Source: Oscillospiraceae bacterium (GTDB lineage: Bacteria > Bacillota > Clostridia > Oscillospirales > Ruminococcaceae). Taken from it: DNA of 35,214 bases. Location: positions 1 to 35,214 of the forward strand of contig JAKSPK010000026.1 of the NCBI GenBank assembly GCA_024404875.1, in the 5' to 3' direction. Shown here piece after piece: positions 6,630 through 28,051 of the stretch; position 1 is the first letter of the stretch, and every line of letters begins with the position of its first letter. A model generated the notes under the pieces. The model ran no database searches. It saw only the letters and a program-made list of their open reading frames with translations, and had not been told where the DNA came from. The position numbers were made by a program, and so were the translations under genes.

Positions 6630-8450
6630 TTACAAATTTATCGTATAGATCCAGTCGATCCGATCACCGTCATGCAGTACATAAGCCCCGCATCCGACCG
6701 GAGGCCGCTCGCCGTTGACCTCGTATGTCCAGCCGGACAGATCGCCGAAATCAAATTCATATAATGATGCGATTCCGCGCACATAGGCGGTCTCGACTGT
6801 CTCGCCGGAAACGCCGTTCACTTCGATCTGCAAGCCAAAAGCCTTGACGGCATCATAAAGCAGCGTCAGCGCAGATTCGTTTTCTTCGATCGAAAATTCG
6901 GTCAAAGGCATGATCTCGCCGTCAGCCGGAAAGCGCTCACTTCCATCCATGCCGCAGATTACATCGCATCGGATCGACATCAGCACATTTCCGCCGCCGC
7001 TGCGCAGTTCCGTCTGATAGAACTGCTCCGGTGACTCGATTCTGATGCACCAGATCAGCGCTGTAACTGCGGCCATGCCGCCCGCGAGCGTCAGCCATGT
7101 TTTGAGACTGCGGTTTTTGCGTATGATGAAAAAGATCGCAAGAGCAGAGAAAACCACAGCTGCACCGACCGTCATCGGAATGCGGTACGGGTATTTGCTG
7201 CCTGATATATCCGGTGCATCCGGCGGGGCTGTTGTGTGGATGATCTCGCTCTGCGGCGAAGTTTCCGTTACGGATGATACGGTTGAAGCAGCAGTCCCGG
7301 ATGTTTTACCGGAAGTGGCCGCTGCCGCAGATAATACAGTGGTTCCTGTTGACGCCGTATTGGTTTCAGCAGCTGCTGTTGTCCGTGATACAGTCTGTCC
7401 GGCGGGGAAGGTCTGCTTCGGCTTGTCATTCGGCGCATCATTTTGCTTCGGCGCATCGGTTTGCGCGGGTGTATCATCCGGACTTGGATCGGAAGGAGCA
7501 TCCCATTCAGGAGAACCATGTGGGAGATACAGATTCCGGCCGTTCTGCTGCATTTCCGCGGCAGTCAGCGCCCAATAGACCTGCACTGTCGCCAGATTGT
7601 TCCGGTCGCAGCCGAGAGCGTGTGCATAGCTGCCGTCATCGAGCCGGAATTGCAGTATGCCGTCGAGCAGCGTATTTCCGTCCGCAATGAAGCGCGGATC
7701 GCTGAGAGCGTCGATGCCGAGTGTGGAGAGTGCCGCCCAGACCTGCGCTGTGCTTTCAGGGTTTTCCGCACCGAAGCTCTGAAATGCGCCGCTCGAAAGC
7801 TGCACATCTGCGAGATAATCAAGCCCGCGCTCGATTGCGCTGCCGATCTCGCTGATCTGCTGATAGGGCGCGAGTGCCTGAATCGTCATTGCCGTGACAT
7901 CAGGATCGCCGCGGTCACCGGCCAATGACCAGCCGCCGTCTGGCGCCTGCTGGCCGACCAGAAGCATGGCCGTTTCGCTGCGCGTATAGTCTGAGGGGAT
8001 GCCGTTGTTCATCAAATGCAGCGCGAAGATCCAGCTCATGATGCCGAGCGTCCCTGCACTGCTGCGAAGCAGTTCCTCACAGACCGCAGGCGCAGCAGGC
8101 TCACAGGCTGCAAGCGTCAGCGCCATTCGTTCACGCGTCGATCCGGAGGCGATCTCCGTGACGGCGATATGCGACTGCAATGCGGCGCTGTACGCGGACA
8201 GATCGTATCCGCGTGCGGAAAGTGCCATTGCGTACCAGTCCGGCGCACTCAGTCCGACCTGTGACGGCAGTATTTCATTGATCCATGCCTCACAGTCAGA
8301 ACCGCCTACAGTTTCCTCGATCTCTGCGGCAAGCTGCGGAATGCGGTTATCATATCCCGCTGCCGGAACAGAAAAAAGCAGCCGGAAGCTGCCCGTGCTC
8401 AGAATCAGCGCGAGCGTTCCGGCTGCGATCTTTCGTTTGATTTTAGTCAT
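6630..8450 (-). CDS. Transcobalamin-like membrane protein: terpenoid-cyclase-like repeats plus DUF4430
   Basis: A 606-aa exported protein. Residues 1-30 form a signal peptide or anchor (KIKRKIAAGTLALILSTG). About residues 35-310 look like an alpha/alpha toroid of the prenyltransferase/squalene-cyclase type (TAMLLVGQQAPDGGWSLAGD and DVTAMTIQALAPYQ repeats), the fold of the N-terminal half of intrinsic factor and transcobalamin. A Pro/Gln/Thr-rich linker follows, then two closely spaced membrane segments (AAVVFSALAIFFIIR and AGGMAAVTALIWCI). The C-terminal ~110 residues match DUF4430, the transcobalamin C-terminal-like domain (SGWTYEVNG, VGCGAYVLHDGDRIDWIY). The ATG at 8450 overlaps the previous gene by 8 bp. 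Position between a probable B12 riboswitch and ECF genes supports corrinoid capture at the membrane; binding is inferred. Confidence 0.82.
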   Translation of the reverse strand: MTKIKRKIAAGTLALILSTGSFRLLFSVPAAGYDNRIPQLAAEIEETVGGSDCEAWINEILPSQVGLSAPDWYAMALSARGYDLSAYSAALQSHIAVTEIASGSTRERMALTLAACEPAAPAVCEELLRSSAGTLGIMSWIFALHLMNNGIPSDYTRSETAMLLVGQQAPDGGWSLAGDRGDPDVTAMTIQALAPYQQISEIGSAIERGLDYLADVQLSSGAFQSFGAENPESTAQVWAALSTLGIDALSDPRFIADGNTLLDGILQFRLDDGSYAHALGCDRNNLATVQVYWALTAAEMQQNGRNLYLPHGSPEWDAPSDPSPDDTPAQTDAPKQNDAPNDKPKQTFPAGQTVSRTTAAAETNTASTGTTVLSAAAATSGKTSGTAASTVSSVTETSPQSEIIHTTAPPDAPDISGSKYPYRIPMTVGAAVVFSALAIFFIIRKNRSLKTWLTLAGGMAAVTALIWCIRIESPEQFYQTELRSGGGNVLMSIRCDVICGMDGSERFPADGEIMPLTEFSIEENESALTLLYDAVKAFGLQIEVNGVSGETVETAYVRGIASLYEFDFGDLSGWTYEVNGERPPVGCGAYVLHDGDRIDWIYTINL

Positions 8451-9378
8451 TGTTCTTGCGGCGGAATGCGACAGCCGTACCGCCCGCGAGCAGTGCTGCC
8501 AGAGCAATCGCAGCGACCGGAGCAGAATCACCGGTTTTTGCGGCATCTGTCTTGCTGCTGCTGCCGGAGCTGTTTGCATTTGCATTGGAGGCTGCCTTTG
8601 TCGTCGTATTGGCGGCAGCGGTTGTTGTTTCGGATGCGGTCGTTGTTGCTGTAATGTCCGATTCTGTCTCGGCGGCATTGATATTTACGATCATTACCGG
8701 CGGAGCAAGCAAAAGATCATCGCTCTTTGCACTGATGACATGATCGCCGATCACATCCAGACTCAGGAGCGCTTTTCCGTTTTCATCGGTCACGAAAGGG
8801 GAATCGGAATTATCAATCGTAATGCGGGCATTCTTGACCGGTTCGGTGTAAGGCATCCAATTCTCATCAAAGAGTACAGCATTCAGCGTGATCTCCAGCG
8901 GCTCACCGTGCTTCAACGCTGTGTCCTTAATATTGAAATAACTGTATTTGTCTGAAAAGCCCGTGGTATCCTGATAAACATATGCATAGAGATAATCGCC
9001 GCTCTTGAGCTCGTCGGTCAGGCCCATCGACATTGTGTCATTGACATAATAGCCGTAGCTGCCGCCGTTCGTAACACCCCACAGCGTTTTGAGGCTGAGG
9101 CCCCAGTCGCTCTGTTCGGCAGCATAACCGGCTGTGCCTTCGCTGTAGTATGTTTCGTGTGCATAATAGAGTGCTTCGTCGATTGTGTATTTTCCGTCGT
9201 TGTCACGGTCATAGACAATCAGCTCACGGTTCGGCAGCTCAATGCTGCCGGCATTGGTGATACCGACGGTGATCTTGATGGAATCACTTTCTTCTGCCGA
9301 AGCAGAAAATGCGGGAGCAGCTGCGGAAACGGCAAGTGCGGCTCCGCAAATTGTGGAAATGATTTTCTTTTTGTTCAT
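8443..9378 (-). CDS. Secreted, C-terminally anchored surface protein of the corrinoid locus
   Basis: A 311-aa protein with a clear signal peptide (MNKKKIISTICGAALAVSAA, cleavage near AFSASA). It has a ~120-aa domain rich in Tyr/Gly (DRDNDGKYTIDEALYYAHE, WGVTNGGSYGYYVND), then an immunoglobulin-like or carboxypeptidase-regulatory-like segment (NARITIDNSDSPFVTDENGKALL). A Thr/Ala/Asn/Ser-rich linker follows. The C-terminus resembles a sortase signal: KTGD, a hydrophobic stretch and a final RRKN. The canonical LP of LPXTG is absent (DAAKTGD), so it may use a variant sortase or be retained by its membrane segment. Start ATG 9378 has AAAGGAG. It is the first gene after the riboswitch terminator, so its role is probably extracellular corrinoid binding, but I do not recognise a characterised family. 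Confidence 0.75.
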   Translation of the reverse strand: MNKKKIISTICGAALAVSAAAPAFSASAEESDSIKITVGITNAGSIELPNRELIVYDRDNDGKYTIDEALYYAHETYYSEGTAGYAAEQSDWGLSLKTLWGVTNGGSYGYYVNDTMSMGLTDELKSGDYLYAYVYQDTTGFSDKYSYFNIKDTALKHGEPLEITLNAVLFDENWMPYTEPVKNARITIDNSDSPFVTDENGKALLSLDVIGDHVISAKSDDLLLAPPVMIVNINAAETESDITATTTASETTTAAANTTTKAASNANANSSGSSSKTDAAKTGDSAPVAAIALAALLAGGTAVAFRRKNND

Positions 9379-9426
9379 ACTGATTCTCCTTTGCAAATCT
9401 TTGAACTGTCAGCAGTCTGAACGCAT

Positions 9427-9462
9427 AAAAAAGCACACCTTTCGTTTTGACGAAAAGCGCAC
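9427..9462 (-). terminator. Riboswitch expression-platform terminator
   Basis: On the minus strand a ~14-bp stem (AGTGCGCTTTTCGT / ACGAAAGGTGTGCT, several G-U pairs) is followed by six T. It lies between the putative cobalamin aptamer and the first gene, 49 nt before that gene's ATG, as expected for transcriptional attenuation. Confidence 0.82.
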
Positions 9463-9655
9463 TCTATCGAGCCCTTGCAATCCTTGCGGACGGGGCATAC
9501 AGACGGCGCGTTTTTCATTTACCCAAAAACGGGAGCGCAGACAGCGCTCAGACCGAATGCAGTGTGAGCGATCCGACTTTGACGGTAGTGGCTGCTGCGG
9601 CGAATTTTCATCGCACTTCTCTCTGAACGCAAAAGCGAAACACTGCATTTATATT
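9463..9655 (-). promoter_or_regulatory. Cobalamin riboswitch (divergent)
   Basis: Read on the minus strand, the leader contains GCGATGAAAATTCGC followed by CGCAGCAGCCACTACCGTCA. This matches the conserved core of cobalamin aptamers (GGUGAAAAUCC, then GCAG-CCC-GCUACUGU). About 100 nt later comes GCCGTCTGTATGCCCC, which resembles the B12-box (AGUCAGGAUACCUGCC) with changes. A terminator follows and the promoter sits just upstream. The genes controlled encode a transcobalamin-like protein and an ECF transporter, which fits corrinoid repression. The match was made by eye; a covariance-model search would be decisive. Confidence is limited by the divergent B12-box. Confidence 0.75.
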
Positions 9656-9664
9656 TGTATTCTT

Positions 9665-9693
9665 ATTATATCACGGAATCCGGGATTTGTCAA
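9665..9693 (-). promoter_or_regulatory. Sigma-A promoter of the corrinoid locus
   Basis: Consensus -35 TTGACA (9693-9688) and -10 TATAAT (9670-9665) on the minus strand with a 17-bp spacer. Transcription should start about 7 nt beyond, immediately before the riboswitch. Confidence 0.9.
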
Positions 9694-9913
9694 GTTGAGC
9701 ACATTCGGTTTTCTGCTGAGCGGTATCGTTTTTATGAAATCTGTCTGCGCATCTGTACCGTCAGTTCTGTGCGATGTCGTGTATATTTGTCAAAGGAAGA
9801 TTTTGAGCTGTCTGTTTGCGATAACAGTGAAAAGAAGCGATCAGTTGTCATCAGTGCAGAATGCTTCCTGCCTCATGTCCTCCTCCAAAATCAGTTTTCT
9901 TCGGAGATTGGGA

Positions 9914-9950
9914 GCAAAAAAATGAGACCGAAAATATCCGGTCTCATTTT
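9914..9950 (-). terminator. Intrinsic terminator after the MATE-GHKL gene
   Basis: An 11-bp stem (AAATGAGACCG / CGGTCTCATTT) with an 8-nt loop is followed on the minus strand by a run of seven T. It lies 128 bp past the annotated stop of the MATE fusion but only 9 bp past the stop of the frame that continues after it. The 220 bp between this terminator and the corrinoid promoter at 9694 hold nothing I can identify. Confidence 0.85.
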
Positions 9951-9959
9951 GTGACAGCA

Positions 9960-10078
9960 TTATTCCGTGCGGAGAATTCGGATTTGTGTTTCGCCGAAAG
10001 CGATTTCGTCGGGGAACATCTGATTGAGCAGCGTCCGGTCTGCAGCGCGGCTGTCATTCGCTTTTTCGGTCGTCAGTC
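9960..10078 (-). other. Out-of-frame C-terminal continuation of the MATE-GHKL gene
   Basis: Directly after the TGA at 10081-10079, another minus-strand frame continues for about 38 codons to TAA at 9962-9960. It has coding-like composition: LRLTTEKANDSRAADRTLLN, then QMFPDEIAFGETQIRILRTE. The terminator begins 9 bp after that TAA, the usual spacing for the end of a gene. The natural reading is that a one-base deletion (or a sequencing error, or a programmed shift) near the CTGACACTCTGAGACTGACG repeat cuts off the original tail. Confidence 0.45.
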
Positions 10079-11833
10079 TCAGAGTGTCAGTGTGAGGTTG
10101 TTCAGGCCGAGGGAATTGACATAGTTTGCATTTTGGACAAGGCTCATGATCATGCGGATACCGATATGTTTGCTGGGATCGTCGTTGTTGTGCATCTCCA
10201 TGTACTTTACCGGATCAAAGCGCTTGCAGTTGTCGCGGATACGGAGGATCGAAGCATCCTTCAGCAGTGCGACACGAATGTCAATCATATGCGGCTTGCC
10301 GTCATTGAAGCCATGTTTGACGATATTGTTGCCCATTTCCTCGATGCTCAATGCGATGATCATGCAGAGCTTGGAGGGAAGCTTTTTCTTCAGGCAGAAA
10401 TCAAGTGCTGACTGTGATGCGTTCACGATATCATCCATAGATGTGACGGAGCATTCAAAGCAATCACTGTCTTTCGCGCCGAAGGTTTTCGGCAGCATTG
10501 AATATGCATCTGCATTGAAGGCTGTGCCGTTTTTCCTGCTGCGGAGCAGAACGATCAGGGAGATGACAATCAGCGTCAGCGTCTCACCGGCGAGATAGCC
10601 GCACCAGACACCGGTGACCTTGAGAAATCGGCTCAGTGCATAAGCAGCCAGCGCAGTCAGCAGGAAATTCTGACAGACTGAGATTACCATGCTCAGCTTG
10701 ATGCGTGAGATGCCCTGATAATAGTTCTTGAGACAGGTGTTTAGTGCGCAGGGCACCAGCGACAGGACGAAAATACGCATTCCTCCGACCGCCAGCAGCC
10801 TCGCCTGCGGATCATCGGTGAACAGCATGACGAGCGGATTTGCGGCTGCCTGCATGACGACCGTTACAATGCCGCAGATCAAGACCGCATAAGCAGACAT
10901 TGTCCTGACAAGCTGCCGCAGCGAGGTCTTATCTGTATCTGTATAAAAGATTGTTGCGAGCGTCAGCGCGACGGCAGCGGTGCCGGAGCTGAATGAATAA
11001 CAGAGATTGCCGATCGTACTGATGAGGGAATAGGATGCAACGGCGAGATTGCCGCCGAGCGACATCAGCAGCTTGTTCAGACAGAAGGTAAGCAGCACCA
11101 GACTGATCTGATTGATGAGCGTCGGGATGCCGTCATAGAACAGCTTATAGCAGCGCTTCCATGAGAACAGCTTGAACCGGAATTTGAAGACACAGTCCTT
11201 GCGGAAGAAAGCGCCGATGCCGATTACAAAAGCGAAGTAATAGCTGAGACTCGAAGCAAGTCCCATGCCGAAGGTACCCCATTTGATGACAAACGCATTG
11301 AGCAGATCCATTGCGATATCGACGACGGTCATTGCAATGACCGCTGCGACAAGCCGTGCACGGTTGCCGGAAAGCTGCATATACGGCACCATGATCTGTG
11401 AGAGGATGAAAGCCGGAGCACCGATGATAAAACCGCGCAGATAATCTTTCGTCAGGCCGAAGACCGGATTGTGCGGCCCAGGCTCACCAGCACCGAGCAG
11501 GGCACAGATCGGATCGGAGAAGACAATGACAATGACGGTTCCGATCAGCGCGATTGCGGAGGCAATGGTCACGGAGATCGTGAAGCAGGCGTTCGTGCCC
11601 TTCTGGTCGCCGCTGGCCATAGTTTTGCCGCACATGACCTGAATGCCTGCGGAGATCATGCTGCCGAATGCAGCAAAGACCAGCAGGATCGGTGTTGTGA
11701 GACCATAGGCTGACATGGAATCGACGCCAAGGAAGCGGAAGATCATGATGCTGTCGATCAGCATACACAGCACAACGGTCATAGCGGATATGATTTGTGT
11801 TGCCAGCATCTGCCGGAATAGTTTTTTGATCAT
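10079..11833 (-). CDS. MATE-family transporter fused to GHKL (RsbW-like) ATPase domain
   Basis: A 584-aa fusion. Residues 1 to about 440 are a MATE/MOP-type multidrug or metabolite exporter with about twelve membrane segments (MIKKLFRQMLATQ start, FGMGLASSLSYYFAF, PTLINQISLVLL). About 455-584 is a cytoplasmic GHKL ATPase of the anti-sigma/RsbW type. It shows an N-box (ALSIEEMGNNIVKHG), a G1-like IRDNCKRFDP and a G2-like KHIGIRMIMSLVQ. Such domains phosphorylate anti-anti-sigma partners or regulate PP2C pathways, so transport may be linked to signalling. ATG 11833 begins the conserved MATE helix and has a modest AAGGG site; an upstream GTG at 11911 is possible. It is separated by 153 bp from the cohesin lipoprotein gene upstream. 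The 3' end may be frameshifted. Confidence 0.87.
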   Translation of the reverse strand: MIKKLFRQMLATQIISAMTVVLCMLIDSIMIFRFLGVDSMSAYGLTTPILLVFAAFGSMISAGIQVMCGKTMASGDQKGTNACFTISVTIASAIALIGTVIVIVFSDPICALLGAGEPGPHNPVFGLTKDYLRGFIIGAPAFILSQIMVPYMQLSGNRARLVAAVIAMTVVDIAMDLLNAFVIKWGTFGMGLASSLSYYFAFVIGIGAFFRKDCVFKFRFKLFSWKRCYKLFYDGIPTLINQISLVLLTFCLNKLLMSLGGNLAVASYSLISTIGNLCYSFSSGTAAVALTLATIFYTDTDKTSLRQLVRTMSAYAVLICGIVTVVMQAAANPLVMLFTDDPQARLLAVGGMRIFVLSLVPCALNTCLKNYYQGISRIKLSMVISVCQNFLLTALAAYALSRFLKVTGVWCGYLAGETLTLIVISLIVLLRSRKNGTAFNADAYSMLPKTFGAKDSDCFECSVTSMDDIVNASQSALDFCLKKKLPSKLCMIIALSIEEMGNNIVKHGFNDGKPHMIDIRVALLKDASILRIRDNCKRFDPVKYMEMHNNDDPSKHIGIRMIMSLVQNANYVNSLGLNNLTLTL

Positions 11834-22349: not shown

Positions 22350-23030
22350 ATGAATCTGAATGAAAAAGCAGTGCAGATCTGTGATATTCTGGATACGGTT
22401 TATCCGGATGCGGTCTGCTCGCTGCAATACGAAAAGCCCTATGAGCTGATGATCGCGACACGGCTCTCGGCGCAGTGTACCGATGCGCGTGTCAACATCG
22501 TGACGAAGGATCTGTTCCGGCAGTTCCCGACGCTGGATTCCTTTGCGGATGCCGATCTCACAGAGCTGGAGCAGGCGGTCAAGCCCTGCGGATTTTACCG
22601 TGCCAAGGCGAAAAGCATCAAGGAGATGTGCATTCGTGTGCGCGATGTGTACGGCGGTGTCGTGCCGGATACTATGGACGATCTGCTGACGCTCTCCGGC
22701 ATCGGCCGCAAGACGGCGAATCTCCTGCTCGGTGATGTCTACGGCAAGCCTTCCGTCGTGACTGATACGCACTGCATTCGCATCTCCGGACGGCTTGGCC
22801 TGACCAAACGCCATGCGCCGGAGCAGGTCGAGGAGGATCTGCGAAAAATCCTGCCGCCGGAACGCTCCGGACGGTTCTGTCATCAGATCGTGCTGTTCGG
22901 GCGCGATACCTGCACAGCGCGGAATCCGAAATGCAGCGAATGTCCGATGAAAGAGTATTGTGTCGATCCGTCCTTTACGAAGATCGAAAAAAATTTGAAA
23001 AAAGCCCTTGACAAATCGGGAAAAAAGTGA
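22350..23030 (+). CDS. nth: Endonuclease III
   Basis: A 226-aa base-excision-repair DNA glycosylase/AP lyase acting on oxidised pyrimidines. The helix-hairpin-helix motif LSGIGRKTANLLL contains the catalytic lysine K121, and the catalytic aspartate is D139 in VTDTHCIRI. The C-terminal 4Fe-4S cluster ligands C188, C195, C198 and C204 have exact CX6CX2CX5C spacing. Length is close to the E. coli enzyme (211 aa). ATG 22350 is chosen because it follows AAAAAGGATG at a normal distance; ATG 22341 lies in that site and earlier starts overlap the divergent promoter. The promoter of the next transcription unit lies within the last codons and stop of this gene. Confidence 0.95.
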   Translation: MNLNEKAVQICDILDTVYPDAVCSLQYEKPYELMIATRLSAQCTDARVNIVTKDLFRQFPTLDSFADADLTELEQAVKPCGFYRAKAKSIKEMCIRVRDVYGGVVPDTMDDLLTLSGIGRKTANLLLGDVYGKPSVVTDTHCIRISGRLGLTKRHAPEQVEEDLRKILPPERSGRFCHQIVLFGRDTCTARNPKCSECPMKEYCVDPSFTKIEKNLKKALDKSGKK

Positions 23031-23036
23031 TATAAT
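23008..23036 (+). promoter_or_regulatory. Consensus promoter of the T-box transcript
   Basis: TTGACA (23008-23013), 17-bp spacer, TATAAT (23031-23036). The -35 and spacer lie inside the last codons of nth and the -10 directly follows its stop codon. Confidence 0.92.
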
Positions 23037-23049
23037 CCAATATATAGGC

Positions 23050-23320
23050 TATGAAGAAGTCAAGCACAGAATTGCCGCTGTCCACAGAGAGCTGGCGTTT
23101 GGTGAAAGCCGGTGTCATGCAGTGTTGTGTATCCCTTCTGAGCCGGAGCGCAGAAAAGGCATTCAAAGTAAGCGTTCCCGTGAGTCTGCGTGAATGAATA
23201 GGACTTGTTGGAGTCTGAAAGAGGTGTTACGCAATAGCGGCACAATTTGAGTGGTACCGCGGGTATTTAAAAAAATGCTCGTCTCAAAGAATCTTCTTTG
23301 GGACGAGTTTTTTATTTTAT
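23050..23320 (+). promoter_or_regulatory. T-box riboswitch leader
   Basis: The leader has the T-box hallmarks in order. The Stem I element AGAGAGC (23086-23092) leads into CTGGC, then TTTGGTGAAA, then GCCGG with the distal GGTG. A 3' specifier region around 23127-23145 reads GTGTATCCCTTCTGAGCCG. The T-box sequence GAGTGGTACCGCGGG is at 23249-23263, then the terminator. The best-placed specifier triplet by spacing to GAGCCG is ATC (23131-23133, isoleucine), but UAU, UUC and neighbouring registers cannot be excluded by eye. The TGGT of the T-box calls for a tRNA with discriminator A, which Ile, Val, Leu and Phe tRNAs usually have. Uncharged tRNA should stabilise the antiterminator and switch on the downstream HTH-cupin-AMP-ligase gene. 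Confidence 0.92.
23278..23313 (+). terminator. T-box regulated terminator
   Basis: A 13-bp stem (CTCGTCTCAAAGA / TCTTTGGGACGAG) with a 4-nt loop, followed by TTTTTT, 22 nt before the coding sequence. It is the off state of the T-box. Confidence 0.93.
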
Positions 23321-23335
23321 AAAAGGAGGATTATC

Positions 23336-25669
23336 ATGAACAATCAGGATAAGCTGCAAAAAGCCGAAATGAAAATCAAAGAGGTCGCTGAACGCATTGC
23401 GCGTCTTCGTGAGGATCTTGGCATTTCTGTTGAAGAAATGGCAGCTAGTACGGACTACTCGGTCGATGACTACAAGGCATTTGAAGCGGGCGAAAAGGAT
23501 TTCAGCTTCACTTTTATTTATAAATGTGCGAATGTGTTTCATGTGGAGATCGCGGATCTCATGGAGGGCAGCAGCCCGGAGCTGAAGGGCTACACCGTCA
23601 CCAGAAAGGGTGAAGGCGATCCGATCGTTCGCAGAGAGGGATTTGTCTATAACCGACTTGCTGCGAAATTCAAGAACAAGACTGTTGAGCCGTTTCATGT
23701 CGTGATCCCGTATTCCGAGGAAGCGCTCTCCAGACCGCTGCATCTCGCAAGCCACGCGGGGCAGGAAATGGATATCGTCGTCAAAGGCACGCTGCGTCAC
23801 ATTATCGGCTCGCATTCCGAAATCCTGCATGAGGGTGACTGCATCTATTATGACAGCTCGATCCCGCACGATGAGGTTGCGCTCGGCGGCGAGGATTGTG
23901 AGATCTATGCTTTTGTCATTGCACCGCATGGCAATGGCTTTTCCGAATACAAGGAGCATATCGTTGAGCATCATTCCACGAATGTCGATAAGGCAGGTCT
24001 GATACATCCGGTCGCGGAGAAATTTGTTGTCTGCGAGACGAATGAAGAGGGCATCCTTTCCGGCGTGAATTTCCGCGAGCAGGACAAGTTCAACTTCGCA
24101 TTCGATATCGTGGATGCTATGGCAGAGAAATGTCCGGATAAGACCGCAATGATCTATGTTGATGTCAACAAGAACGAGCGCCGCTTTACATTCAAGGATA
24201 TCAAACGCTATTCCTGCCAGACTGCGAATTATTTCAAATCGCTCGGCATCAAGCGCGGTGACCGCGTTATGCTGGTTCTGAAGCGTCACTATCAGTTCTG
24301 GTTCTCGATTCTTGCACTGCACCGCATCGGCGCGCTCGTTATCCCGGCCTCTAATATGCTGAAAAAGCATGATTTTGAGTACCGGTTCAATTCTGCGGAT
24401 GTTTCTGCGATCGTTTGCACAGCGGACGGCGATGTGGCAAATGAGGTCGATCTCGCAGCAGCAAACTGCCCGTCGCTGAAGACAAAGGTTATGGTCAATG
24501 GGCAGCGTGAGGGCTGGCATGATTTCAACGCAGAGCTTCCGGCATACAGCACGCATTATGAGCGCAGTGAGGATTCTCCCTGTGGCACAGATCCGATGCT
24601 GATCTTCTTCAGCTCCGGTACCTCCGGTAATCCGAAGCTCGTGCTGCACAGCTATCAGTATCCGCTCGGACACTATGTCACAGCGCGTTACTGGCAGAAT
24701 GCCGATCCGAACGGACTGCACTTCACGATTTCTGATACCGGCTGGGGCAAGGCACTTTGGGGTAAACTCTACGGCCAGTGGATGTGTGAAGCAGCCGTAT
24801 TTGTGTATGATTTCGACCGCTTCTCTGCTGATGATATTCTGCCGATGTTCAAGAAATACAGCATCACGAGCTTCTGTGCACCGCCGACCATGTACCGCTT
24901 CTTCATCAAGGAAGATCTTTCGAAATACGATCTTTCCTCGCTGAAGTATGTGTGCATCGCAGGTGAGGCTCTGAATCCGGAAGTGTTCTATCAGTTCCAG
25001 CGTGCGACCGGCATCAAGCTTATGGAGGGATTCGGCCAGACCGAAACCACGCTTACCATTGCGAATGTAGTTGGCATGGAGCCGAAGCCGGGCAGCATGG
25101 GCAGACCGAATCCGCAGTATGATGTGCAGGTTCTGCTTCCCGATGGAACACCGGCAGCAGTCGGTGAGACTGGCGAGATCTGCATTAAGCTGAAAGAGGA
25201 AGGCATTCCCGGATTGGCACTCTGCTACTACGGCGACGAGGAAACGACCGCTGAGACATGGCGCGACGGCTTCTATCATACCGGCGATACTGCCTGGGTG
25301 GATGAGGACGGCTATTACTGGTATGTCGGCCGTGTGGATGATGTTATTAAGTCTTCCGGCTACCGCATCGGACCGTTCGAGATCGAGAGCGTCCTGATGG
25401 AGCTGCCGTATGTGCTGGAATGCGCCGTGACCGGTGTGCCGGATCCGATCCGCGGACAGGTCGTCAAGGCGACGATCGTCCTGACAAAGGGTACGGTTCC
25501 TTCTGATGAGCTGGTCAAGGAGATTCAGGAATATGTCAAGAAAGGCACTGCACCGTATAAGTATCCGCGTGTTGTGGAATTTATCAACGAGTTGCCGAAG
25601 ACGGTTGGCAGCGGCAAGATTCGCCGCGCAGCGATCCGCGAAATGGACAAGGCAAAGTACACCAACTAA
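23336..25669 (+). CDS. HTH-cupin-acyl-CoA synthetase fusion protein
   Basis: A 777-aa three-part protein. Residues ~12-75 are an XRE-type helix-turn-helix (ARLREDLGISVEEMAASTDY). About 100-190 is a cupin_2 domain (PLHLASHAGQEMDIVVKGTL, EGDCIYYDSSIPH). About 230-777 is a complete adenylate-forming synthetase most like acetyl/medium-chain acyl-CoA synthetases: FFSSGTSGNPK at 424-434, GFGQTET, YHTGDTAW, YVGRVDDVIKSSGYRIG, and the catalytic K761 in GSGKIRR. It should activate a carboxylic acid to its acyl-CoA. The N-terminal half resembles stand-alone XRE-cupin regulators. AAAGGAGG lies 7 nt before the ATG. Expression is controlled by a T-box, so it is induced by shortage of one amino acid. Activation of a branched-chain or aryl acid for amino acid synthesis is the favoured inference. 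Confidence 0.92.
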   Translation: MNNQDKLQKAEMKIKEVAERIARLREDLGISVEEMAASTDYSVDDYKAFEAGEKDFSFTFIYKCANVFHVEIADLMEGSSPELKGYTVTRKGEGDPIVRREGFVYNRLAAKFKNKTVEPFHVVIPYSEEALSRPLHLASHAGQEMDIVVKGTLRHIIGSHSEILHEGDCIYYDSSIPHDEVALGGEDCEIYAFVIAPHGNGFSEYKEHIVEHHSTNVDKAGLIHPVAEKFVVCETNEEGILSGVNFREQDKFNFAFDIVDAMAEKCPDKTAMIYVDVNKNERRFTFKDIKRYSCQTANYFKSLGIKRGDRVMLVLKRHYQFWFSILALHRIGALVIPASNMLKKHDFEYRFNSADVSAIVCTADGDVANEVDLAAANCPSLKTKVMVNGQREGWHDFNAELPAYSTHYERSEDSPCGTDPMLIFFSSGTSGNPKLVLHSYQYPLGHYVTARYWQNADPNGLHFTISDTGWGKALWGKLYGQWMCEAAVFVYDFDRFSADDILPMFKKYSITSFCAPPTMYRFFIKEDLSKYDLSSLKYVCIAGEALNPEVFYQFQRATGIKLMEGFGQTETTLTIANVVGMEPKPGSMGRPNPQYDVQVLLPDGTPAAVGETGEICIKLKEEGIPGLALCYYGDEETTAETWRDGFYHTGDTAWVDEDGYYWYVGRVDDVIKSSGYRIGPFEIESVLMELPYVLECAVTGVPDPIRGQVVKATIVLTKGTVPSDELVKEIQEYVKKGTAPYKYPRVVEFINELPKTVGSGKIRRAAIREMDKAKYTN

Positions 25670-25682
25670 GTGAAGAAAAACG

Positions 25683-25715
25683 AACGCCCCTGATTTGAAA
25701 TCAGGGGCGTTTTTG
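25683..25715. terminator. Bidirectional terminator between convergent genes
   Basis: AACGCCCCTGA / TCAGGGGCGTT stem with T run on the plus strand and an A-rich left flank. It lies 14 bp after the synthetase stop and just beyond the end of the convergent pseudokinase gene. Confidence 0.88.
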
Positions 25716-25717
25716 TG

Positions 25718-28051
25718 TTAACCTTCCTCAGTTGGTGTTGATGGATCCGGATTTGCAGGAGGAGGATCCGGTACTGATGCAGGCGGCGGATCCGGTGTGA
25801 CAGGCGGATCGGTCTGCGGTTGAGGCGGTTCAGTCTGTTTCTGTGTGACAGGCGGCTGTGTTTCGGTCACGATCTCTTTCGCCGTTGTCTTAGTTGTCAG
25901 CGAAGCAGTCGAAACACCAGTCGAGAGCCAAGGCAAAGACTGTGTGGTTTCGGTCTGACTGCTAATCGCAATCGTGCTGTAGACCGGATTGTAGGCGTAA
26001 TAAACGATGATCTGATAATCGTCGAGCGCATCAATGATCTTGCCGACCTCTGGCTCGACACCGCAGACATAGCCATTCTTATAGTCGTAATTTACGGTTG
26101 CGACATACTTGACGACCTGATTCTTGCCGTTGCTGGCGACCTTTGTCTGTGCAGGCGCAGTTGTGACAGAGGGCATGATGCCGCTCAGGTTCGGGTTCAT
26201 AGCGCCTTCGCCCATGTTGTTATTGCCGCCGCCGTTGATCGCGGGAACCAGTCCCATGTCTTCCAGCGTTTTGAGGTATTTCGGAAGCTTGAGTCCCTTG
26301 AATTGAGGGATCGAGATGATCGACGGGCCGAGGCTGACCTTGACGCGCATTGAGCTGCCGGAAATAAACTCTGTGCCCTTTTCAAATTCCTGCCAGAAGA
26401 TCTGATCTTTGACATAAACATCGCTGAACTCATATTCCGGTTCCAGCTCCAGCCAGCCGGCGAATTCATCACGCTTGATGGTGAAATTCATGCCGACAAG
26501 CTCTGGAATTTCGGAATCCGGACGAAGCTCAATACCGGATTCGTCTGTCTGGACCGGCACGACATTGTCGGTCACAGAGGATTTGTCATCGCGGTGGAAA
26601 AGCGTATTGCTTCCGGCGCTGAGTCCCCAGACACGCATAAAAGCCCAGATGACGATCGCAACAATAATGAAGAATAGGAATGCGATGAAGATCGGTGCGC
26701 GAATTCGCTCGAAGACGCTGATTTCTTCTTCCTGAACCGCTGCGGCACGGGTGCCGGCGGAACGACGGCGTGCCGGATCAGCATCCGGACGCGGGCGCTG
26801 AGCATTCGTGCCCTGCGGCGGACGGCGGCGCATATTCTGCGGTTGCTGACCGTTTTGCGGCCGCTGACCGTTCTGTGGACGGCGCTGACCGTTTGGGCCC
26901 TGCGGCGGACGGCGCTGACCATTCTGCGGAGGCTGCTTTCCATTCTGTGTCCGGCGCTGCGGATTGGCCTGCCGCTCGGTGCGATTTTCGGGCGTAATCG
27001 GCATTTTGCCGCTGGTATGCGTTTCGTAGACCGCAGTGTCACCCTTTGCATGACGCGGGGCACCTGCGCTGACACCTGCCGTTTCATTCGGCTCTGTTAC
27101 CTCGTCAAACAGCAATGTGACAAGATCGGTGATTGTGCGGACACGGGTGCTGCTGTCAAGACGGAGACCTTGCAGGATTCCCTCTGAGACAGATTCCGGG
27201 ATTTGCGGATTGACCTCATTCGGGGGCGCAATGTTATCATAATCCTGACGGGAAACGGCATCCGGCGTGCGGCTGCCAGTCAGGATGCGGTACAGCACAG
27301 AGCTGATGCCGTAGACATCCGTCCATGTGCCCTGCTGCTTATCTGCGTAATACTGCTCCGGTGCTGCATAGCCGTCGAACAGTTCGGCGTCCAGCTCGGT
27401 ATCATTCGTGCGGACTGCGGAGATGCAGAAATCGGTCAGCTTGATTTCGCCCTTATCCGTGACAAAGATCGTTTCCGGGCTGAGACCGCGGTGCAGTACG
27501 CCTGCATTATGGAGCAGACTGAGCGTCGTAAAAAGCGGCGGGAAGATTCTCCGTACAACATTCCAGCTCAGCTCTCCAGCATTTTCTCGGAGATATTCGA
27601 GCAGCGTTCCGCCCTCCAGATACTCATAAACTGCATAGGTGGTATTGTTTTCGGAGAACATATCCAATGCGGGATTGAGATGGCTCAGGTTGCGCAGCCG
27701 CGCGAGCGCTTTGTTCAGCTCAGTGTATTCGGCCATGAGCGCCTTATATTGCGCCAGATGGTCATATTTAACATCAATGGTCGGTTCGTTCGGAACACGG
27801 CTGCAAAGCTGCTCCGGAAAATATTCACGGATCAAAAGTTTACAGTCCACGGATGTGTCATAGCCGATATAGGTTACGCCCTCACCGTTGGCGCTGAGTT
27901 CCCTACCGATCAGATAACGCCCGTGCAGAATCGTACCCTGCCGCAGGTAGTTGGACAGCGAGGGGGTACTGCTGTCATATCCGCAATGCGGACAGACCTT
28001 CGCCTCGCCGAGCGGTTCCATGCAGCCAAAGCAGAGTCTGAGATCGCTCAT
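25718..28051 (-). CDS. Zinc-ribbon / Ser-Thr pseudokinase / PASTA-like membrane protein
   Basis: A 777-aa bitopic protein. A zinc ribbon (C7, C10, C20, C23) is followed by a kinase fold at about 41-300. Catalytic positions are altered. The VAIK lysine is R75 (LLIREYFPE). HRD-x-SPDN is HRGLSPET, so G189 replaces the catalytic Asp and T194 the Asn. DFG is DFC (207-209). The glycine-rich loop, the AAPEQY motif and D245 remain, so a folded pseudokinase is likely. A Gln/Arg/Pro-rich low-complexity segment (about 330-440) leads to one membrane helix (about 454-478), an extracellular part with one or two PASTA-like repeats (IPELVGMNF, IPQFKGLKL) and a Pro/Thr-rich tail. AAGGAG precedes the ATG. It has its own promoter and is probably a cell-wall sensor or scaffold. 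Confidence 0.85.
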   Translation of the reverse strand: MSDLRLCFGCMEPLGEAKVCPHCGYDSSTPSLSNYLRQGTILHGRYLIGRELSANGEGVTYIGYDTSVDCKLLIREYFPEQLCSRVPNEPTIDVKYDHLAQYKALMAEYTELNKALARLRNLSHLNPALDMFSENNTTYAVYEYLEGGTLLEYLRENAGELSWNVVRRIFPPLFTTLSLLHNAGVLHRGLSPETIFVTDKGEIKLTDFCISAVRTNDTELDAELFDGYAAPEQYYADKQQGTWTDVYGISSVLYRILTGSRTPDAVSRQDYDNIAPPNEVNPQIPESVSEGILQGLRLDSSTRVRTITDLVTLLFDEVTEPNETAGVSAGAPRHAKGDTAVYETHTSGKMPITPENRTERQANPQRRTQNGKQPPQNGQRRPPQGPNGQRRPQNGQRPQNGQQPQNMRRRPPQGTNAQRPRPDADPARRRSAGTRAAAVQEEEISVFERIRAPIFIAFLFFIIVAIVIWAFMRVWGLSAGSNTLFHRDDKSSVTDNVVPVQTDESGIELRPDSEIPELVGMNFTIKRDEFAGWLELEPEYEFSDVYVKDQIFWQEFEKGTEFISGSSMRVKVSLGPSIISIPQFKGLKLPKYLKTLEDMGLVPAINGGGNNNMGEGAMNPNLSGIMPSVTTAPAQTKVASNGKNQVVKYVATVNYDYKNGYVCGVEPEVGKIIDALDDYQIIVYYAYNPVYSTIAISSQTETTQSLPWLSTGVSTASLTTKTTAKEIVTETQPPVTQKQTEPPQPQTDPPVTPDPPPASVPDPPPANPDPSTPTEEG

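Follow-up and report, generated by a model that had tools for sequence, protein, structure and literature searches.

The isoleucine-specific T-box leaders known from ileS and ilv genes (RF00230) consist of a Stem I with a specifier codon, a T-box sequence and alternative antiterminator and terminator structures. All of these parts, including the isoleucine codon, are shared by a leader found in a 35,214-nucleotide stretch of DNA from an Oscillospiraceae bacterium (positions 1 to 35,214 of the forward strand of contig JAKSPK010000026.1, assembly GCA_024404875.1; hereafter called the window); the gene controlled by it, however, encodes an acyl-CoA synthetase. Judged by comparison of sequences, this unit would very probably serve the starvation-controlled salvage of 2-methylbutyrate into isoleucine. 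The main-text parts available of two T-box surveys (PMC2494555, PMC3766115) do not contain the terms acyl-CoA, phenylacetate, ferredoxin or CoA ligase. A literature search, whose coverage left the survey supplements and the two main T-box reviews outside, revealed no report of T-box control over such ligases, and it found little on the genes for the branched-acid route and their control.

Branched volatile acids, which are also fed to cattle as isoacids, serve rumen bacteria as starting material for branched-chain amino acids. The papers of Robinson and Allison (1969) and of Allison and Peel (1971) are said to be the classical ones on the reductive carboxylation of these acids in rumen anaerobes. 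For rumen fermentation, passages of PMC7356843 name 2-methylbutyrate as a precursor of isoleucine and isobutyrate as a precursor of valine, and describe leucine as obtainable from isovalerate and phenylalanine from phenylacetate. Two characterized ligases are relevant to the activation of these acids. Among solved chains, the closest to the ligase part of the window protein is 3etc, the medium-chain acyl-CoA synthetase MacsMa of Methanosarcina acetivorans (682 bits; next best chain, 371 bits). According to sections of PMC10455477, which do not mention T-box control, MacsMa prefers 2-methylbutyrate, also forms adenylates of propionate, possesses a glycine in place of the pocket tryptophan of Acs and has a tryptophan, Trp259, that is critical for substrate binding. 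The GWGKxxWGK motif holding Trp259 is common to MacsMa and the window ligase; in contrast to the latter, the solved chain is archaeal and lacks an N-terminal helix-turn-helix (HTH)-cupin part. MbcS, the methylbutyryl-CoA synthetase of Staphylococcus aureus, is active on 2-methylbutyrate and isobutyrate and poor on isovalerate, as described in parts of the main text of PMC10026030, in which the term T-box is absent. This substrate range parallels the isoleucine and valine leaders of the ligase family studied here and fits the lack of leucine leaders in it; MbcS, however, supplies branched fatty acids.

The original prediction, made from the letters of the window, described a consensus promoter, a T-box leader with an AGAGAGC motif, a T-box sequence and a terminator, and a single large gene ending in a complete adenylate-forming acyl-CoA synthetase, and the analysis bears out each of these parts, all on the forward strand. 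The sigma-70 type promoter (TTGACA-17-TATAAT, 23008-23036) agrees with the consensus at 12 of 12 positions and has a TG before the second hexamer; scanning for promoters and terminators in itself gave site numbers no higher than in shuffles, and what counts is the perfect match and its position. The T-box leader RNA (23042-23289) is the sole Rfam match at gathering within the window and spans the full RF00230 model (1-219), scoring 107.2 bits (E 6e-23; gathering score, 93). Its anatomy can be seen directly: the AGAGAGC motif of Stem I is located at 23086-23092, the specifier codon ATC at 23131-23133 and the T-box sequence GAGTGGTACCGCGGG, placed by the letters themselves and by the RF00230 alignment, at 23249-23263. 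Inside GAGTGGTACCGCGGG, a TGGT bulge at 23252-23255 is the predicted partner of the tRNA 3' end. An antiterminator stretch (23244-23290; -13.4 kcal/mol, z -3.2) competes with a terminator stretch (23274-23318; -20.9 kcal/mol, z -7.0, matched by 0 of 200 shuffles), within which folding and scanning place an intrinsic terminator hairpin followed by a T run (23277-23308).

The specifier had been proposed to be ATC (Ile), and fitting the leader to a T-box covariance model had been suggested as a check; the RF00230 alignment indeed places AUC at the codon position. The specifiers of relatives were read by a pattern that fixes the helix and leaves the codon free. Among the first 110 loci (the window's own copy, 29 from a genome search and 80 from genome contigs), 88 have a T-box motif 5' of the gene, and all 85 readable leaders carry ATC (L051 with an additional later match). 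The full set comprises 140 distinct fused ligases with at least 45% identity over 690 residues, from which exact repeats and interrupted genes were removed and in which near-copies were kept; a T-box motif is present in 113 of them and missing in 24, and three are cut by the contig. The 109 readable specifiers are 97 ATC, 11 GTA and one GTC, all of them codons for isoleucine or valine amid varying neighbouring bases, and the 12 valine codons belong to a single clade discussed below. In the copy B leader of locus L210, the pattern allowed TCG or GTA and the Rfam alignment gave GTA. Four leaders could not be read: those of L045 and L112 are truncated at the contig start, Stem I of L047 contains a gap, and the motif of L073 is doubtful.

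Relatives in which the gene is split served as a control. These are 20 loci, one per genome, that match the ligase part only, and none of them has a T-box within 700 nt of the ligase. A separate HTH-cupin gene lies just 5' of the ligase in 14 of the 20, and Rfam finds a T-box before this gene in all 14 (eight at gathering and six below), 13 of which are also found by motif. ATC is the specifier in 13 of 13 readable leaders (10 by pattern; L282, L288 and L291 by eye). The six relatives lacking the HTH-cupin gene have no T-box detectable by motif and Rfam (L298 by Rfam at gathering only). Thus, the leader accompanies the HTH-cupin-ligase unit, irrespective of whether it is fused or split. With 97 fused relatives and all readable split-gene leaders sharing the codon, the specifier of the window leader is close to certain to be that of isoleucine.

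The ligase gene (23336-25669) is an open reading frame preceded by an AGGAGG ribosome binding site (23324-23329) 6 nt 5' of the ATG and encodes a protein of 777 amino acids, an HTH-cupin-acyl-CoA synthetase fusion by Pfam and NCBIfam. It consists of a helix-turn-helix domain (residues 21-75, 23396-23560; HTH_3, 24.1 bits, cut-off 23), a cupin domain (residues 137-192, 23744-23911; Cupin_2, 34.9 bits, cut-off 27.2), an AMP-binding domain (residues 262-618, 24119-25189; PF00501, 206.3 bits, cut-off 29.9) and an AMP-binding C-terminal domain (residues 682-756, 25379-25603; PF13193, 74.8 bits, cut-off 24.5). The last two, both over their cut-offs, identify an AMP-forming acyl-CoA synthetase; the HTH-cupin part was not mentioned in the original prediction. 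The first 12 relatives among the matches listed are 84-90% identical and are all Ruminococcus records. The isoleucine-box gene is also present in Ruminococcus flavefaciens FD-1 (L039). Gly567 is aligned with Trp414 of E. coli Acs and Trp475 with Trp259 of MacsMa (numbered as chain index minus 23, anchored on Gly459-Tyr460-Lys461 and Arg490). The pocket thus appears to be of the MacsMa type, with a glycine for the pocket tryptophan of Acs and a tryptophan at the position of Trp259, and the protein is predicted to be a 2-methylbutyrate-CoA ligase.

Looking in relatives for the same leader and gene beside a 2-oxoacid:ferredoxin oxidoreductase (VOR) had also been suggested, and this arrangement was found in all 11 tandem loci and in four further operons. 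In the tandem loci (L210 and L212 to L221, spanning the genus codes g38, g45, g62, g80 and g106), an isoleucine T-box (ATC) precedes ligase copy A and a valine T-box (GTA or GTC) precedes copy B. On the same strand 3' of copy B, a P-loop protein and VorB are encoded in 11 of 11 loci, VorA in 10 (the stretch of L219 ends) and the aminotransferase IlvE in six; IlvE is missing between VorC and the next gene in L213 and L215, and three tandem stretches end before it. For L210, NCBIfam models support VorB with 566.8 bits (cut-off 399) and IlvE with 414.2 bits (cut-off 250.05), and the similarity of VorA and VorC to beta and gamma subunits stays below the cut-offs. In genus g45, one ATC leader heads the genes for the ligase, the P-loop protein, VorB, VorA, VorC and IlvE on one strand (L223, L224, L225 and L227); in L226, of the same genus, the contig ends after the ligase. 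By its gene content, this operon is the arrangement expected for a route from 2-methylbutyrate to isoleucine under an isoleucine switch. In L104, one ligase stands behind an ATC leader, and a further leader, read by eye as GTA, is followed by an interrupted ligase, a P-loop protein and VorB. L222 has both ligase copies and these neighbours except IlvE, and no T-box motif.

Of the P-loop proteins between the ligase and VorB (L210:10932-11600 and its equivalents; CbiA-like in L104), two were scanned with NCBIfam at 1e-20 and gave no match. A gene for a protein with ACT and metallo-beta-lactamase domains is located just 3' of the isoleucine-box ligase in L037 (3009-4448), in five other loci and in L211 (5643-7241, reverse strand), and is not present 3' of the window ligase.

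The isoleucine and the valine ligases differ in a residue pattern that is seen directly in their sequences. In a tree of 71 thinned ligases, one change explains the isoleucine and valine labels; the valine clade (SH-aLRT 99) is nested among the isoleucine ligases and includes one row without a T-box. Under the filter used, 13 positions separate the two groups; of these, 471, 552 and 583 fall within the AMP-binding domain. Position 471 alone is invariant in both, with glycine in 97 of 97 isoleucine-box and alanine in 12 of 12 valine-box ligases. The codon of Gly471 is located at 24746-24748; the residue is aligned with Gly255 of MacsMa (by the chain offset), four residues before Trp259, and with Val310 of E. 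coli Acs, which we take to be a residue of the acetate pocket. Among ligases without a T-box, alanine occurs at this position in L208 and in the L222 copy of the valine clade. As glycine is widespread in T-box-less and split-off ligases, it is the common state and only alanine marks the valine group; on the alignment, Ala471 is its derived state. An extra methyl group on the pocket wall would fit an acid that is one carbon smaller, albeit in a single event.

All three steps of a reductive carboxylation route are encoded in the window genome. In addition to the ligase, VorB (544.2 bits, cut-off 399), VorA and VorC are found in a row on contig 1, with VorA being the frame between the other two and the best model for VorC below its cut-off, and the branched-chain aminotransferase IlvE reaches 422.9 bits (cut-off 250.05). 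The VOR and aminotransferase genes fit the known rumen reductive carboxylation of branched volatile acids, to which the genes and the tRNA control are added here. As for the tRNA response, we infer that uncharged tRNA-Ile would pair with the leader at two sites, the AUC specifier through its anticodon and the UGGU bulge through its 3' end, upon which the antiterminator would form and the ligase gene would be read. The ligase, whose substrate is predicted by comparison, would convert 2-methylbutyrate, and perhaps close branched acids, to 2-methylbutyryl-CoA. In the direction of flux presumed here, VOR, encoded elsewhere in the genome, would reductively carboxylate 2-methylbutyryl-CoA to 3-methyl-2-oxopentanoate, which the branched-chain aminotransferase would convert to isoleucine. 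Three reactions, namely an activation, a carboxylation and a transamination, would thus replenish isoleucine from an acid that is a waste product of fermentation. The isoleucine specifiers, the g45 operons with VOR and aminotransferase and the preference of MacsMa lend comparative support to the earlier proposal that the enzyme activates 2-methylbutyrate for isoleucine synthesis by reductive carboxylation.

Several observations weigh against this salvage of 2-methylbutyrate. The best NCBIfam model for the window protein, MbcS (NF047394), gives 445.1 bits and falls short of its whole-protein cut-off of 850. The window unit is a single gene, with VOR and ilvE elsewhere, so that ligase, VOR and aminotransferase do not share one T-box operon there, and the four isoleucine operons that unite them all come from one genus. 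No T-box motif is in reach in 24 of the 140 relatives; Rfam found no T-box at gathering in 15 of these loci, and none at E 0.01 in eight loci, seven of them within the 15. The valine clade reflects one evolutionary event, and glycine at position 471 is likewise present in 22 of 24 T-box-less ligases and in three split-off ligases that lack HTH-cupin and in which the motif was found. Of the 35 tRNA matches in the assembly, which is 87% complete, 30 were read, and none of these was tRNA-Ile(GAU). Furthermore, ilvC, ilvD and ilvA lie within 8 kb on contig 27 of the window genome; with these genes present, the switch would control a second isoleucine route here, and salvage would not be the sole one. 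The link between lacking ilvC and having the ligase is weak (absent in 29 of 61 good-quality ligase genomes versus 71 of 222 others, Fisher p 0.034; tallied by hand over the family sample, where ligase genomes are those with a full-length ligase scoring more than about 830 bits), and on this account a loss of de novo synthesis was rejected as a general reason for the ligase.

A different fate of the product is conceivable, as the ligase would make the same CoA ester as its characterized relative MbcS, which provides it for branched fatty acids. VOR in the ligase operons, the aminotransferase in 10 of 15 such loci and the isoleucine and valine T-boxes argue for amino acids instead, and we regard a role in fatty acid synthesis as unlikely; fatty-acid genes were not searched by family. 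A different substrate would be propionate, whose CoA ester could be carboxylated to 2-oxobutyrate and enter the ordinary isoleucine pathway via ilvB, ilvC and ilvD. Both ilvC and ilvD are present in the window genome, and MacsMa makes propionate adenylates too (a section of PMC10455477). However, ilvC above the cut-off is missing in 12 of 20 chosen ligase-bearing genomes, four of them in the window's genus, and these could not use 2-oxobutyrate by the ordinary pathway; moreover, an acid smaller than isobutyrate would call for the reverse of the observed pattern, glycine in the isoleucine-box and alanine in the valine-box ligases. The propionate route is accordingly a poor candidate, less credible still than the supply of fatty acids.

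The same holds to a greater degree for the two other explanations. The HTH-cupin-ligase unit might mainly be a sensor-regulator of branched acids with metabolism being secondary; the 14 unfused relatives with an upstream HTH-cupin gene, all of them with a T-box, and the six lacking both would fit this. The complete AMP-binding domains and the metabolic operons speak against it, making it very improbable. Finally, the codon read by the T-box could be a different one, for instance UAU (Tyr), shifted upstream by one base, with the gene serving aromatic acid salvage. The window reads GUAUCC, and UAU fits on spacing alone; in the first 110 loci, however, all four bases (T, C, G or A) occur just before the codon while AUC is kept. 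The tyrosine specifier is rejected because of this variation, and a role in aromatic acid salvage is scarcely credible. Salvage of 2-methylbutyrate for isoleucine remains the best reading of the window unit.

Leaders for leucine and probably phenylalanine stand before ligases of other families or, for leucine, before a neighbouring gene. Leucine and PHENYLALANINE leaders were encountered incidentally and without counting over a defined set. By Rfam alignment, six leaders have a leucine codon. In L204, a CUC leader is located directly 5' of a gene for an 842-amino-acid fusion of a TIM-barrel domain (PF01261) and a ligase (7925-10453, reverse strand), and in L047 a CUC leader precedes a gene that the contig end truncates, leaving its TIM-barrel start (8362-9057). 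L210 (CUC) and L216 (CUG) show the order leader, 2-isopropylmalate-synthase-like gene and TIM-barrel ligase (2110-4557 in L210; 1-2116, reverse strand, in L216); in L213 and L215, CUC stands before a 2-isopropylmalate-synthase-like gene where the stretch ends. The TIM-barrel ligase, which belongs to another ligase family, is a candidate isovalerate-CoA ligase by this context.

Two leaders precede PaaK-type genes: that of L102 (3878-5965, reverse strand), whose PaaK-type gene reaches 530 bits, below the cut-off of 646, and is followed by an ACT pair, and that of L089 (9777-10277), where only the start of the gene is present. The Rfam alignment register alone would give UCC (Ser) for L102. UUC (Phe) is kept as the probable specifier of both because a five-pair basal helix gives the usual one-base gap and because their bulge is UGGU, not the UGGC of the trp and aspS leaders. 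The base before CCA is A in tRNA-Phe and G in tRNA-Ser and tRNA-Trp. In the window genome (leaders L002, L003, L004 and L005), the bulge is UGGU in the isoleucine and valS leaders and UGGC in the trp and aspS leaders; these bulges agree with the base at the tRNA end. A row of IorA and IorB (over cut-off), a PaaK-type gene and an ACT pair is found on contig 31 of the window genome (L247:6348-11405). This row is likely a phenylacetate-to-phenylpyruvate route, and no T-box match was found at it.

The window genome has five T-box matches, before the ligase, trpE, valS, a trpB-like gene and aspS (weak), and the Rfam alignment gives GUC for valS and UGG for trpE and the trpB-like gene. Other leaders in the relatives carry CTC (leuA-like genes) or, before ilvA-like genes, ATC (L176 and L191) and CTC (L179); the names valS, trpE, trpB-like, leuA-like and ilvA-like were assigned from sequence by the analyst, and the ilvA-like genes also match TIGR01127. 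HTH-cupin ligases with about 62% identity (L205-L208, L113, L114 and others) form a second clade, which lacks a T-box motif. L081 (3848-6310), a member of the clade without T-box, has an ATC leader, unlike its close neighbours in the tree. In the window, the scan found a terminator 3' of the ligase gene (25682-25712; -22.9 kcal/mol, z -6.2), and the transcription unit likely consists of this gene alone. The next large open reading frame (25718-28051, reverse strand) encodes 777 amino acids with a partly matched protein-kinase domain and a weak PASTA match.

Taken together, these loci probably represent a modular T-box family for acid salvage in these Clostridia, in which each unit would combine a leader for one amino acid with a CoA ligase for the corresponding fermentation acid and the codon would predict the substrate. 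Isoleucine with 2-methylbutyrate and valine with isobutyrate are well supported as parts of this family; leucine with isovalerate, activated by the TIM-barrel ligase, has fair support, and phenylalanine with phenylacetate, activated by PaaK, is suggestive. The isoleucine and valine units share one HTH-cupin ligase family, in which codon and pocket residue probably switched together after one duplication, and this change would be a clear example of switch and enzyme shifting specificity together, with a candidate pocket residue. The tRNA-reading leader would thereby predict the substrate of each ligase, and the range of T-box targets, which covers the making, moving and charging of an amino acid, would come to include its recovery from the waste of its own fermentation.

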